Source of the DNA: Planctomycetota bacterium
Lineage (GTDB): Bacteria; Planctomycetota; Phycisphaerae; Phycisphaerales; Phycisphaeraceae
Length of the DNA: 41,273 nucleotides
Direction of reading: 5' to 3'
Assembly: GCA_021413865.1 (NCBI GenBank)
Contig: JAIOPN010000048.1
Span: 1 to 41,273, forward strand
The notes beneath the pieces were generated by a model. That model searched no databases. It saw only the letters and a list, made by a program, of their open reading frames with translations, and was not told the DNA's origin. The position numbers and the translations under genes are program-made. This document shows, in pieces, positions 839 to 41,273 of the stretch; the stretch's first letter is position 1; the number at the start of each line of letters is the position of its first letter.

Positions 839-920
839 CCGCAGCCCCGCCATGCGAATGCGGGGCTTCTTGTGCGATCGCCGAATACAGAAAGCCCCGC
901 ATTGGCATGACGGGCTGCGG
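839..920 (+). repeat. REPIN-like palindromic repeat, copy 1
   Basis: This is an 82-base imperfect inverted repeat. Each arm is itself a small hairpin of the form GCCCCG-N-CGGGGC, and the two arms are inverted about a spacer of roughly 30 bases. Copy 2 at 1986-2068 shares both the arms and most of the spacer (TTGTGCGATC, then CGAAT and ACAGAA), so the two are homologous rather than independent palindromes. The paired-hairpin design matches REPINs, which are non-autonomous elements mobilised in other bacteria by RAYT transposases. No RAYT gene is in the window. Confidence 0.75.
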
Positions 921-1072
921 CGGGCTTTCCCCATCTTTCCCAGACCGAACTTCCCGCACGTCCATGCGGAGTTATCACCTGTAAATAAAGGACTTACGAC
1001 TCTTCTTCGTGCCCAAGGGGCTATGTTTCCTTTGCCCACGGGGAGATCGAGCCGATCCCTTAGTGGTGCAAG

Positions 1073-1103
1073 GCGTCCCGGCCGGCGTGTGTCGGCGGGA
1101 CGC
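1073..1103 (+). promoter_or_regulatory. Strong hairpin in the leader of the PEP-CTERM gene
   Basis: GCGTCCCG at 1073-1080 pairs perfectly with CGGGACGC at 1096-1103, with a further CCG/CGG pairing inside. It lies 55 bases upstream of the GTG start at 1158. The right arm followed by GAGCC superficially recalls the GGGACGC-AAAGCC core of c-di-GMP-I riboswitches, but the rest of that consensus is not evident. It is best recorded as a structured 5' leader of unknown role. Confidence 0.35.
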
Positions 1104-1157
1104 GAGCCTGTGCAGTGCGGGGCCGGTTCCGATCAGGTTCGGTCAGGGGAGAAACAC

Positions 1158-1916
1158 GTGTTCAGAAAGATCAACAAGGCGGTGGCCTCGGCGATGTGCG
1201 TCGCGGGTGTGGCGGCGGCTGTCGGCGCGACGCCGGCGCTTGCGATCGTCACCCCGATCGGCGCGCCGCCCGGCGGCGAGAAGTCGCAGAACGAGATCTT
1301 CGATCAGGTCTACCCGGGCACGTTCAGCCCCAGCGGCGTGAACTTCATCGGCAGCGCGGGCATCAACGCCACGCGCATCGATGATGCCTCCGACCAACTC
1401 TGGGGCGGGCAGTTCGTCGGCTACGACGTGAAGGCCCGCTTCGCCGCTTACACGCAGGAGTTCGGCTACTTCGCCGGCATCAGCGGCGGGTCGTTCACGA
1501 AGATCTTCGACGTCTCGGGCACCGGCTACTCCGTCAGCGAGGCGGTGTTCGTCGACCCGGTCTTCACGCAGGCGTCGGTCATGCGCTGGGCGCGAACGGG
1601 CGACCAGGGCGGGACGTGGTCCTCGCTGCAGAGCGACAACCCCGGCGGCAACAAGGACCACATGGTCACGTACCAGATCACGGGCCTGACCGGTTCGCCC
1701 TACGACGGGCGCGAGGTGTACATGGTCTTCTGGGAAGACCTGAACGCCGGCGACTGGGACTACAACGACCTGGCGGTGGAACTCGTGCGCGTGACCCCGC
1801 CCCCCGGCGGCGGCAACCAGACCGAGCCAACGCCCGAGCCGGTGACGGCGTCGCTGGGCGCGCTGGGCACGGCGGGTCTGCTGATGGCGGCGACGCGGCG
1901 GCGCGGACGGGCCTGA
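1158..1916 (+). CDS. PEP-CTERM exported protein with DUF4114-like domain
   Basis: The 252-residue product starts at GTG 1158, chosen because GGGGAGA (1147-1153) forms a ribosome binding site and because the next residues form a typical signal peptide (KINK, a hydrophobic stretch, then TPALA). The C-terminus has the PEP-CTERM sorting signal: PEPVTASLG, a short hydrophobic segment and the basic tail RRRGRA. Such tails are recognised by exosortase for envelope sorting. Near residues 195-215, WEDLNAGDWDYNDL matches the Asp-rich motif of DUF4114 domains, which are thought to bind calcium. The gene stands alone, between two REPIN-like repeats, with its own terminator. The ligand or matrix role is unknown; no exosortase gene is in the window. 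Confidence 0.85.
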   Translation: MFRKINKAVASAMCVAGVAAAVGATPALAIVTPIGAPPGGEKSQNEIFDQVYPGTFSPSGVNFIGSAGINATRIDDASDQLWGGQFVGYDVKARFAAYTQEFGYFAGISGGSFTKIFDVSGTGYSVSEAVFVDPVFTQASVMRWARTGDQGGTWSSLQSDNPGGNKDHMVTYQITGLTGSPYDGREVYMVFWEDLNAGDWDYNDLAVELVRVTPPPGGGNQTEPTPEPVTASLGALGTAGLLMAATRRRGRA

Positions 1917-1953
1917 GTTTGAAGAAAGAGTAAAACAGGACAATCCACGCAAG

Positions 1954-1980
1954 CCCCCGGTTGACGCCGGGGGTTTGTCG
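1954..1980 (+). terminator. Intrinsic terminator of the PEP-CTERM gene
   Basis: CCCCCGG (1954-1960) and CCGGGGG (1967-1973) form a 7-bp stem with a 6-base loop, followed by TTTGTCGTTT. It lies 38 bases after the stop codon. Confidence 0.7.
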
Positions 1981-1985
1981 TTTCC

Positions 1986-2068
1986 GCGGAGCCCCGTCAT
2001 GCCAATGCGGGGTTGCTTGTGCGATCATCGAATTACAGAAGCCCCGCATAGGCATGACGGGGCTCCGC
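1986..2068 (+). repeat. REPIN-like palindromic repeat, copy 2
   Basis: This 83-base element has an 18-bp perfect outer stem (1986-2003 with 2051-2068), extended to 27 bp with one mismatch. The spacer is about 29 bases and homologous to that of the copy at 839-920, in the same orientation. Together the two copies bracket the PEP-CTERM gene and its terminator. Confidence 0.8.
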
Positions 2069-2096
2069 GAATGAAAAATGCGCGACAAGTGACGCG

Positions 2097-6472: not shown

Positions 6473-8778
6473 ACCCCGATCCGCTTTTCCGCCGCATGGC
6501 CTACGTGCTGGTGTTCATGGGCATCGTCGTCTTCTGCGCCGCCGATCGTAACCCGGCGCTGCTGCTGATCGCCGGTTCGCTGCTGGCGCTGAGCTGGTAC
6601 GTCGTTGACGGACCCGCGGGACGGCCGCTGCCCAACTGGGCGATCAATCTGGGCACCATCGCCTCGACGGGATGGCTCATCGCCGAACTCGCGGCGCGGC
6701 CGATGCAGTACCTGGGGCCCATGGGCCACTTCATCACCTGCCTCCTGGTCGTCGTCTTCTACGGCCGCAAGACCAACCGCGAGTACGGCATCGTCATGGT
6801 CCTGAGCCTGCTCCAGGTCGTCGGCGCCTGCATGCTCAGCGACTCGATCCTCTCGGGCGTCCTGCTGGCGCTGTATGGCCTGCTCATGCTTTTTACCGTG
6901 CTGCTTTTCCAGCTCAAGGCCACCGGCGACCAGGTGCGCGGCGCGAACCTGGCCGTCTCACCCGGCGGGGCGCCCGAGGTCAGGCCCCCCTTCGGCCGCG
7001 GCTGCCGCGGCGACCTGAGGCTCGGAGGCGCAGCCATCGGGGCGATGATCGCCGTCGCCGCCGCGTGCGTCTTCCTCTTCATGCCGCGGGGCTTGTTCAT
7101 CCGGCCCGGCTCACCCTTCAACATGCCCCCGCTCTCCGCACGCTCGGGCTTCGTGGGCAGCATCCGCCTCGACGGCTTGGCGCCCGACTCGGGCGACCGC
7201 GAAGTGCTCATGCACGTGCGATTCTCCGTCGCGGGCGCGCCGGCCACGCTGCCCCCCGGCGGCTGGCTGCTGCGCGGCACGGGCCTGGACCAGTATGACC
7301 CGGGCCTGCGCACCTGGACGCGCAGCCGCCGCGCCAACATGGCGGACAACATCATCCCACTGGGCGGCGCCGGCGGCGTGCTCGCAGCCGGCGTGCCGCC
7401 GTCGCCCGCGCTTGAGGCCGACGTCACCATGCGTTCCTGCACGCACCAGTGCTTGTACGCCCCCTTCCCCGCGCAGTGGGTCTGGGCCGAGGGGCAGGGG
7501 GCGGTGATCTACGGCGGGATCGACCGGGGGGTGCGGCTGATCGAGCCGTGGGGCGGCGTGCTGCACTACCGGGTCCGCGCGCCGCTGGAGGCCGGGCCGG
7601 CGACACGGAACGACCCGGTGCCGCGCGCGGTCATGCAGCCGGGGCCAAACGCCACCAGCGGGCCGATCTTCGAGACGCTCAGCCAGGCGTACGCGCAGGG
7701 GTGGCAGGTCTCCGCGGAGCCGATCCGTAACTACGCGCGGCGGCTGTTGCGTGATAAAGGCGTGTCGCGAGACACGGCGGACGCGCCGACGCCACGCGAC
7801 GCCGTGCTGGCCGAAGCTTTGGCGGATCACCTGCGGGCCCATTACCGCTATACGCCGGCCGCCGCCGCGCCGGGCCGGGCGCGCAGCGGCGAACCGATCT
7901 CGTCATTCCTCTTCGAGAGCCGAGAGGGCCACTGCGAACTCTTCGCCTCCGGGCTGGCGGCGATGGCGCGGTCACTGGGCATGACGGCCAGGCTCGTCTC
8001 GGGCTACCGCGTGTACGAATACAACCGTGTGGGCGGGTACTACGTCGTCCGCCCCGAGCACGCACACGCCTGGGTCGAGGTGTACTGCGGCGAGGGCGGC
8101 TGGGTGACGGTGGACCCGACCCCGCCGGACATCTCGGGCGATGCCCAGCGCGACGGCGGCTGGCTGGCGTGGCTGGGCGACGTGTACGAGCACGTGGAGT
8201 ACGCGTGGTTCAGTTCCGTCATCGCCTACGACGACCACGCGCGCGACGGGGTGATCGAGACGGCCAAGACGTCGGCGCAGCTGGCGGCCACCGTCTGGAT
8301 GCAGGGCACGATGGGGTCGGTCACACGGTACGTGGAGGAGAGGGTCTCGAACATTTTCGCAGACGGCTTCAACCTGGCGGCCACCGGGCTCATCACGGTC
8401 GCGCTGGTGATGGGCGTGGCGGGGCTGGTCCGCATCTTGTTCGTGCGCCGCCGCCGGCTGTCGGCGCTGCAATTGGGCCGCATGCCCCTGCCCCAGCGGC
8501 GCGGCCTGACCCGGCGGCTGGGCTTCTACCTGATGATGCTCGACATCCTGGAGCAGCACGGCCATATCCGCCCGCCGTGGCAAAGCCCCTTCGCCTTCGC
8601 GCAGAAGCTGGTCACCGCCGACCCGGTCACGTTCGCCCCCGTGCCATCGATCACCGAGATGTTCTACGAGGTCCGCTTCGGCGGCCGGGCGACGGACCCC
8701 CAGCGCGCCCGCTGGGTGGACACGCAACTCGACAACCTGCGGCACGCGCTGATGCGGCGACGCGCAGGAAGGCACTGA
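6469..8778 (+). CDS. TgpA-like transglutaminase membrane protein (DUF3488 - transglutaminase - DUF4129)
   Basis: This 769-residue protein has six or so N-terminal membrane helices (residues 8-165 and about 182-205, DUF3488 type), a periplasmic transglutaminase-like core, another helix (about 640-660), and a C-terminal DUF4129-like domain ending near LDNLRHAL. The catalytic triad is visible as Cys489 (REGHCELFASG), His533 (EHAHAWVEVY) and Asp549 (VTVDPTPP). This is the TgpA architecture, an inner-membrane enzyme of unknown natural substrate that is essential in Pseudomonas aeruginosa. It overlaps the DUF58 stop by four bases, the classical pairing for this family. The usual MoxR ATPase partner is absent from the window. 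Confidence 0.88.
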   Translation: MNPDPLFRRMAYVLVFMGIVVFCAADRNPALLLIAGSLLALSWYVVDGPAGRPLPNWAINLGTIASTGWLIAELAARPMQYLGPMGHFITCLLVVVFYGRKTNREYGIVMVLSLLQVVGACMLSDSILSGVLLALYGLLMLFTVLLFQLKATGDQVRGANLAVSPGGAPEVRPPFGRGCRGDLRLGGAAIGAMIAVAAACVFLFMPRGLFIRPGSPFNMPPLSARSGFVGSIRLDGLAPDSGDREVLMHVRFSVAGAPATLPPGGWLLRGTGLDQYDPGLRTWTRSRRANMADNIIPLGGAGGVLAAGVPPSPALEADVTMRSCTHQCLYAPFPAQWVWAEGQGAVIYGGIDRGVRLIEPWGGVLHYRVRAPLEAGPATRNDPVPRAVMQPGPNATSGPIFETLSQAYAQGWQVSAEPIRNYARRLLRDKGVSRDTADAPTPRDAVLAEALADHLRAHYRYTPAAAAPGRARSGEPISSFLFESREGHCELFASGLAAMARSLGMTARLVSGYRVYEYNRVGGYYVVRPEHAHAWVEVYCGEGGWVTVDPTPPDISGDAQRDGGWLAWLGDVYEHVEYAWFSSVIAYDDHARDGVIETAKTSAQLAATVWMQGTMGSVTRYVEERVSNIFADGFNLAATGLITVALVMGVAGLVRILFVRRRRLSALQLGRMPLPQRRGLTRRLGFYLMMLDILEQHGHIRPPWQSPFAFAQKLVTADPVTFAPVPSITEMFYEVRFGGRATDPQRARWVDTQLDNLRHALMRRRAGRH

Positions 8779-26669: not shown

Positions 26670-26822
26670 GACGTGCGCTCGGGAGTGGGCGCATCGTAAC
26701 ACGGGGGTTGGTGATATATGGTTGAAAGAGAGCCCGCCCCATTCGGGGCGGCGCTAAACGGTCGTAAAACAACCGCGGCTCCTATTTGCAACTCGAAACC
26801 CCGAACCCCTATCCTTAAGAGC

Positions 26823-41102: not shown

Positions 41103-41136
41103 CAACATGGTGTGTCGCGGTGCATAAGACGGCCTA

Positions 41137-41273
41137 GGCTCTGTCTGAAAACTCTGTGAATCGCCGATGTTGAGCAGGCCGGCAAGGAGGCCGGCCCTCA
41201 TGCGACGACACGAACTGACAGATCAGGAATGGGAACTGGTTCATCCGCTCCTTCCTCCACGCACCGCCAGAAC
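41137..41273 (+). mobile_element. Partial insertion sequence (IS5-like), right contig end
   Basis: The sequence is identical (reverse complement) to 2-138 at the other contig end. It starts GGCTCTGTCTGAAAA after a TA dinucleotide that could be a target duplication. Transposase coding begins at 41200. The leader carries a 7-bp hairpin (41177-41183 with 41190-41196) whose loop is exactly AAGGAG. Confidence 0.8.
41200..41273 (+). CDS. Transposase N-terminus, partial (IS5-like)
   Basis: Starts MRRHELTDQEWELVHPLL; only the first 24 codons lie within the window. It is the same protein start as the left-end copy at 1-75, with the ribosome binding site in a hairpin loop. Confidence 0.75.
   Translation, partial: MRRHELTDQEWELVHPLLPPRTAR

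Follow-up and report, generated by a model that had tools for sequence, protein, structure and literature searches.

REPINs around a PEP-CTERM-like gene of a planctomycete and their probable cognate RAYT, from a branch unclassified by its tyrosine motif

The two hairpin elements that bracket a PEP-CTERM-like gene near the beginning of the window (the whole of contig C46, 41,273 bases, from a draft genome of 4.37 Mb in 67 contigs, 95% complete) are REPINs of a family confined to one lineage, with 31 elements and 45 arms. A RAYT-like gene lying between two doublets of the same family on contig C26 probably encodes the cognate enzyme, and its tyrosine motif places this protein in an unclassified branch with respect to table 1 of PMC6006769, as far as the available part of that paper goes. 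We consider it very likely that the REPINs are mobilised by this single-copy RAYT-like HuH/tyrosine protein, and that local copying gives rise to brackets around single genes. The locus comprises the following features.

839..920, + strand: REPIN 1, head-to-head REP doublet that precedes the PEP-CTERM-like gene (arm scan, folding, alignment)
844..865, + strand: REP arm of REPIN 1; foot GCAG, bulge C, loop GCGA, tail CTTC (arm scan and folding)
866..894, no strand: spacer of REPIN 1 (alignment)
895..916, - strand: second REP arm of REPIN 1, which diverges more from the pattern (two mismatches) than any other of the 45
1158..1916, + strand: bracketed gene, 252 aa, PEP-CTERM-like tail and weak DUF4114, both below cut-off
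1951..1979, no strand: terminator-like hairpin between convergent genes, seen by eye and not called by the scan
1985..2069, + strand: REPIN 2, head-to-head REP doublet (arm scan, folding, alignment)
1991..2012, + strand: REP arm of REPIN 2; foot GGAG, bulge T, loop GCCA (arm scan and folding)
2013..2041, no strand: spacer of REPIN 2, a homologue of the REPIN 1 spacer (alignment)
2042..2063, - strand: second REP arm of REPIN 2 (arm scan and folding)

The elements at 839-920 and 1985-2069 are real head-to-head doublets of an imperfect palindrome: each holds two inverted copies of GCCCCG-N-CATGC-N-AATGCGGGG, with the foot outward. The window yielded four arm matches, whereas 100 dinucleotide-preserving shuffles of it averaged 0.01. 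When the + strand was folded as RNA, z reached -6.6 for REPIN 1 and -11.9 for REPIN 2, and none of 200 shuffles equalled either. Folded as single-stranded DNA, five of six arms (three of the four in the window and the two tried from C26) beat at least 198 of 200 shuffles, and these well-folding arms display a one-base bulge and a four-base loop; arm 895-916 alone folded weakly, with 42 of 200 shuffles as good. The latter has one base deleted after the foot and is hence counted against the foot in the tally of the 45 arms given below. REPIN 1 and REPIN 2 are identical in 72 of 86 alignment columns, spacers included, and their spacer match exceeds all of 5000 shuffles; among 55 spacer pairs, that of the window ties for second place with a C49/C55 pair from two different contigs. 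The initial annotation, which had placed paired inverted hairpins with a homologous spacer and a common orientation at 839-920 and 1986-2068, was correct in all of this, its coordinates being right within a base or two. Rfam searching of positions 1-2600 returned microRNA precursor models only, at 31.8, 25.3 and 24.5 against gathering scores of 85, 98 and 75.5. We rejected a microRNA identity, since these scores are far under gathering and any long hairpin is expected to give such matches.

The enclosed gene lies 237 bp downstream of REPIN 1 and 68 bp upstream of REPIN 2. REPIN 1 itself is upstream of both its neighbour genes, and REPIN 2 starts 27 bp past the 3' end of a DUF167 gene, which in turn adjoins uvrC. 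The translation of 1158-1916 has a tail made of PEP, a hydrophobic stretch and RRR, which resembles the PEP-CTERM type. With the 252-residue product as query, NCBIfam gave MYXO-CTERM only, with 14.3 bits where the cut-off is 20, and Pfam gave DUF4114 (19.9 against 27). The initial annotation had rightly positioned the gene between the elements, and its naming as PEP-CTERM follows the tail motif, with profile scores below cut-off. The terminator ascribed to this gene could likewise be seen, as a G+C-rich hairpin at about 1951-1979 followed by TTT, but the terminator scan made no call there. The composition of the gene is native, with a GC3 of 0.933 versus 0.926 in uvrC. Its homologues are patchy (4 of 60 relatives at E 1e-5) and absent from the 15 uvrC regions that were fetched; a search of its own genome for a second copy met only a partial match, of 49 residues, on C3. 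DUF167 stands near uvrC in only 6 of the 15 fetched regions, synteny being low here in general. On C33, a CPXCG gene bracketed in the same manner has homologues in 8 of the 60 relatives, and none of the neighbour genes tested was found beside homologues of the bracketed gene at the loci fetched for these two brackets (5 and 8, respectively). Because synteny is too low both at uvrC and at the CPXCG gene, these comparisons do not tell whether the gene was gained or the REPINs inserted.

The edges of the window deserve a word. Positions 1-140 and 41135-41273 carry the same insertion-sequence end in inverted orientation, at both contig ends; it has 12 matches in the genome, ten of them flush with a contig end according to the returned locus lengths. 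Positions 1-838, which adjoin the insertion sequence, have a G+C content of 0.507 versus 0.673 for the whole window and hold a 175-aa frame for which no family model scored above cut-off.

Far from being the only two copies, the window elements belong to a set of 45 arms genome-wide when up to two mismatches are allowed (33 exact, 11 with one mismatch and 1 with two), and a control scan of the genome with the reversed pattern gave none. A match with three mismatches at C10:63981 was dropped as chance, as it is solitary and departs from the pattern within the conserved core. The 45 arms make up 31 elements: 11 head-to-head doublets, 3 tail-to-tail doublets, 17 single arms and no head-to-tail doublet. 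Only the 11 are true REPINs, and their arm starts are 49-54 bp apart. The foot, with the consensus C-G-S-A ahead of GCCCCG and read as GSAG, has C in 30, G in 42, G or C in 39 and A in 42 of the 45 arms; at position 2, which follows the G, we counted G in 24, C in 15, A in 3 and T in 3. The bases of the tail CTTC are kept in 40, 43, 41 and 36 arms, respectively. With an overlap of up to 15 bp allowed, 30 of the 31 elements lie outside the genes called by a simple purpose-written gene caller, and the sole genic one (C33:33949) is inside a doubtful frame of 535 codons. For three of the 30 extragenic elements a called neighbour is missing, and these were left out of the orientation count; the 27 with both neighbours called lie between convergent genes in 5 cases, unidirectional in 17 and divergent in 5. 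These proportions are about those of random placement, so that no preference for 3' ends is seen. A short palindrome in many, mostly extragenic copies corresponds to a REP, and inverted doublets with a near-fixed spacing and a long hairpin, together with spacer likeness in part of them, correspond to REPINs.

The 60 relatives scanned for arms, none of the same genus and several of them incomplete (down to 51%), gave only two lone matches with two mismatches (G031 and G043), both judged to be chance since each is solitary and deviates in the core that the family conserves. The copies are thus not fixed at orthologous places in these relatives. An exact arm scan of a collection of 84,980 species, from which the window's own genome may be missing, returned nothing. 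Two other repeats were noticed in the genome: a second REP family (TTTAGCGCCGCCYCGAATGGGGCGGGCTT), with a copy at 26730-26758 of the window and 12 genome copies at up to three mismatches, and a third palindrome, GCCCAGGCATGGCCATGCCTGGGC, which occurs with a variant near several elements (C9:22325, C23:3444 and C55:56192).

The RAYT-like gene and its repeats were found by reading the DNA between clustered copies. On C26, two tail-to-tail doublets (7633-7698 and 8266-8331) that share an identical stretch of 46 nt enclose one gene (7721-8257, 178 codons), present as a single copy in the genome, the product of which displays the motifs H-L-H and Y-L-P-K-H. The window elements had been called REPIN-like, with the advice to search the genome for further arms and for a RAYT-type transposase; the 45 arms and this gene, bordered on both sides by the same REP as expected of a cognate RAYT, uphold that view.

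Taken alone, the C26 protein has no Pfam or NCBIfam match at E 1. Its homologues in the order are found in 61 of 400 genomes at E 0.001 (its own included), the weak end of this list including other HuH groups, and in 25 of 400 at 1e-10. Our clade sample consists of the C26 gene and 20 of its best 21 other matches, G394:C104 being left out; 20 of these 21 genes were aligned, without the 595-codon run-on frame L191. H83, H85, W139 and Y162-L-P-x-H166 are invariant in 20 of 20, providing a HuH motif (H83-x-H85) and a single catalytic tyrosine (Y162). At E 0.1, clade members match PF01797 (14 of 20, best 2.1e-8), the IS200 model NF033573 (14) and REP_Tyr_transpos NF047646 (11), whereas the C26 member alone matches none of the Y1_Tnp and RAYT models. 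Against solved transposases (2xm3 and relatives, which we take to be ISDra2), the clade profile reaches E 0.084 around the HuH motif. These profile matches mark the clade as a diverged branch of the Y1 superfamily. A tree separates the clade from the valS inserts described below with a support of 97/100; the branches of C56, C6/C64 and E. coli rayT are very long, and C56 lies on the clade's side of the split. As the reference rows are not all separated, it is the tyrosine motif and not the tree that makes us call the clade unclassified. Indeed, the motif classes in table 1 of PMC6006769 are, in the part of that paper available, Y---Q, Y---NP and Y----Q only, and Y-L-P-x-H, present in 20 of 20, corresponds neither to class 2 (Y---NP) nor to class 1 (Y---Q) or class 3 (Y----Q). 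We found no account of a Y-L-P-x-H clade in the open-licence literature searched.

The genes of the clade are flanked by repeats of their own. For 20 of 21, the 400 bp upstream and the 400 bp downstream share at least 16 identical nt, versus 3 of 159 control windows, with a 16-nt threshold that was chosen after inspection of the data and with genes that are not all independent, L186 and L188-L190 being mutually close relatives. The lone exception, L191, has a frame that runs into an apparent aminotransferase, and its downstream flank is thus misplaced. In the three closest sisters, whose identity to the C26 protein is 44-45%, the bordering repeat is AGCCCCGCAARCGCTTGCGGGG, which shares the AGCCCCG/CGGGGCT stem and stem ends of the window family. 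With up to two mismatches, this palindrome is dispersed over some 30 sites in G014, of which 17 are exact, and some 40 in G026, of which 7 are exact; it occurs once in the window's own genome and not in G015.

A search of the genome with Y1_Tnp (PF01797), which together with NF047646 constituted the initial RAYT search models, had pointed to five other places, and the C26 gene was not among them. No window-family arm with up to four mismatches was found in the 6 to 16 kb scanned near each of the five, with the exception of a lone arm some 7 kb away from the valS insert. The apparently split RAYT of C58/C28 was rejected as the cognate enzyme, since it has its own repeat family and its gene is apparently cut by an insertion sequence: the N-terminal half, recognised by eye, lies where C58 ends and the C-terminal half where C28 starts, and both halves are bordered by tail-to-tail copies of TTTAGCGCCGCCYCGAATGGGGCGGGCTT. 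The near-identical C6/C64 genes, the IS200-like gene of C56 and the class 3-like domain inside valS were also rejected because none of them is bordered by the window REP family. Close to the two nearly identical Y1 genes, which lie at the starts of C6 and C64, there is a GGGGTCAG word; it agrees with GGGGWSAS, the motif that the accessible text of PMC3733652 assigns to TIR-associated transposases.

The valS gene (G000:C4 21792-25454, or L044:7793-11455) is a single frame of 1220 codons with an in-frame insert of 228 aa (aa 421-648) that carries a class 3-like HuH domain. Eleven loci from other genomes, chosen for a weak hit inside a long frame, were looked at (including L201-L209): nine, from eight genera, are ValS with an insert at about the same position, L210 has the HuH domain without ValS, and L211 gave no match. 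NHVH is present in 8 of 10 valS inserts. Homologues of the insert are found in 53 of 201 genomes, and in 15 of 201 they lie in frames of at least 988 aa, the ValS identity of which was checked for only some. No account of a HuH insert in valS was found in the open-licence literature searched.

The elements are clustered at 0.4-3 kb, beyond chance. Nine of the 15 successive pairs on a same contig are less than 3 kb apart, against 0.63 expected, a number never reached in 20,000 simulations with placement on one uninterrupted line of 4.37 Mb. Six pairs enclose exactly one gene, on C19, C23, C26 (the RAYT-like gene), C33, C46 (the window) and C55, and one-gene bracketing is not special to the PEP-CTERM-like gene; the arms of the C19 and C33 brackets are opposite or mixed. 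Adjacent elements resemble each other more, on average, than random pairs do (3 of 20,000 permutations), as do the members of the six one-gene pairs (1 of 20,000), and this likeness is carried mostly by C23 and C55. An arm-based measure puts 13% of all pairs level with or above the window pair, and the likeness of the C33 38748/40421, C58 and C19 pairs is near or below that of the average pair. Taken together, clustering and average neighbour likeness suggest local spread, of which we take the window pair to be a product.

On this basis, one would wonder how the elements could travel. We propose that each REPIN is a mobile but non-autonomous hairpin built from an inverted pair of REP units. 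By analogy with TnpA-REP of E. coli, the C26 protein would bind the single-stranded hairpin through its foot (GSAG) and one-base bulge, would nick near the conserved CT on the 3' side, and would copy or move the unit. New copies would often land one gene away from an older relative, so that related pairs would come to bracket single genes, and the pair around the PEP-CTERM-like gene would be one such local copy pair. TnpA-REP, according to the available part of PMC8266576, binds the single-stranded hairpin, the E. coli system needing both foot and bulge, and cuts at the adjacent CT; the A and G at foot positions 3-4 are presumed there to guide the choice of CT, and positions 2 and 4 that of CA. 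In our family, the A and G of the foot and the 3' CT are conserved and position 2 is variable, which would fit cleavage at CT and not at CA. The 3' CT of the arm can also pair within the stem.

Other explanations have to be weighed against REPIN mobility driven by the C26 protein. The REPs could serve as left and right ends, as in an IS200/IS605-type element, and the RAYT could have moved or captured the PEP-CTERM-like gene; more generally, pairs of same-family REPs could be the ends of composite units whose enclosed genes, the PEP-CTERM-like one included, are moved by the Y-L-P-x-H RAYT. Such a cassette would agree with the common orientation of the window doublets, with six one-gene brackets of which one encloses the RAYT gene itself, with the patchiness of the two bracketed genes tested (4/60 and 8/60), and with the absence of the tested neighbours beside their homologues (5 + 8 loci) and of any homologue from the 15 uvrC regions. 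However, the PEP-CTERM-like gene is native in composition and, its 49-residue partial match on C3 apart, has no second copy in the genome, synteny is low in general (DUF167 near uvrC in 6/15 regions), and the C19 and C33 brackets have opposite or mixed arms. We therefore hold both the particular and the general form of this idea to be unlikely. A tandem duplication of a REPIN-plus-gene segment would explain similar spacers and a same orientation, but we find it hardly credible: the 100 bp flanks outside the elements show no likeness, 87 of 500 shuffles aligning equally well on the left and 385 of 500 on the right, which speaks against a simple tandem duplication. The suggestion of the initial annotation that a cassette had been gained or duplicated through the repeats thus loses ground, in view of these flanks, of the native composition and of the bracketing at five other places. 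A gain of the PEP-CTERM-like gene may nevertheless have occurred, as its homologues are patchy (4/60) and no close relative was among the genomes compared.

On the other hand, the strength of the RNA hairpins and the location of REPIN 2, 27 bp beyond the end of the DUF167 gene, would suit terminators or mRNA-stabilising hairpins that are under selection and immobile. The absence of a 3'-end preference (5 convergent, 17 unidirectional, 5 divergent) and the position of REPIN 1 upstream of both its neighbours argue against this, and the unpaired conserved foot, the spacer likeness, the near-absence from 60 relatives and the flanked RAYT-like gene fit mobility better. We thus deem such immobile hairpins very improbable, and a secondary role as RNA hairpins would be compatible with mobility. 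One could also imagine that another Y1 protein (C58/C28, C6/C64, C56 or valS) moves the repeats in trans, the C26 gene being a bystander. Five other Y1_Tnp places exist in the genome, and the REP family of the C28 RAYT fragment is similarly shaped; yet arms with up to four mismatches are lacking in the 6 to 16 kb scanned around each of the five places, save the one about 7 kb from the valS insert, the C58/C28 gene is apparently cut by an insertion sequence, and among these genes only that of C26 is directly bordered by the window REP family. A mover acting in trans seems quite improbable to us.

The statement that REPINs are little described in Planctomycetota, to which R. baltica belongs, proved partly right. 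The available part of PMC3733652 reports GTAG-type REPs in Planctomycetes and REP families in R. baltica, and that of PMC6006769 reports class 3 HuH proteins for Planctomycetes. The present family resembles the REPINs and RAYTs of P. fluorescens SBW25, as described in the accessible text of PMC3116915, by its inverted intergenic REP doublets and singles, its hairpins and a RAYT adjoining the same REPs. It differs from them by its 31 elements only, by its foot GSAG and by an excess of next neighbours reaching 0.4-3 kb, whereas for SBW25 no deviation from random spacing above 200-400 bp is reported in that text. The Marinomonas REPs are concentrated near the tnpA gene, according to the available part of PMC8266576. 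The latter allows a parallel with E. coli TnpA-REP, which shares a bulged imperfect palindrome, a tetranucleotide foot, HuH and tyrosine motifs and a CT beside the hairpin; E. coli, however, has Y---NP and a T at foot position 2, in contrast to Y-L-P-x-H and mostly G or C here. Sequence similarity between the C26 clade and the E. coli RAYT is very low, the branch being very long. The GTAG-tagged superfamily (24 families in the accessible text of PMC3733652) likewise has tagged stem-loops and head-to-head and tail-to-tail dimers, most of them 20-100 bp apart, and tag variants in some families (GYAG, GYRG, GTRG and GTMG); our family, though it would function like a tagged one, is set apart from it by the tag, which is GSAG, only 18 of the 45 arms fitting GYAG at position 2. 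As to TnpA-Y1 class 3, known from Planctomycetes in the available part of PMC6006769, it too is flanked by REP-like repeats, and its foot CnGA is reminiscent of CGnA here, but it has Y----Q and the C26 clade Y---H; the class 3-like protein of this genome is instead the valS insert.

Altogether, a REP/RAYT pair is found beyond the Proteobacteria, which are well studied, and its enzyme clade is overlooked or hardly recognised by present family models. As nearly every clade member examined stands beside its own hairpins, the pairing of enzyme and substrate can be followed across genera. Recognition rules thereby become testable, namely the foot GSAG, the bulge and the replacement of Tyr-x-x-x-Asn by Tyr-x-x-x-His, and clustering at the scale of a gene makes local versus genome-wide travel of REPs testable as well.

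A last parallel can be drawn with RAYT subclass 2.4, which has REPs inside the gene according to the available part of PMC6006769. The sisters from G014 and G026 do carry an in-frame REP-like palindrome in the RAYT gene, between the HuH and tyrosine motifs (G014:C32 36277-36298 and G026:C17 98600-98623), although Y---NP is found throughout class 2 and Y-L-P-x-H here. These palindromes encode SPACACGA and SPASACGA, respectively, and the EPACACGD of the C26 protein could be a decayed trace of such a palindrome.
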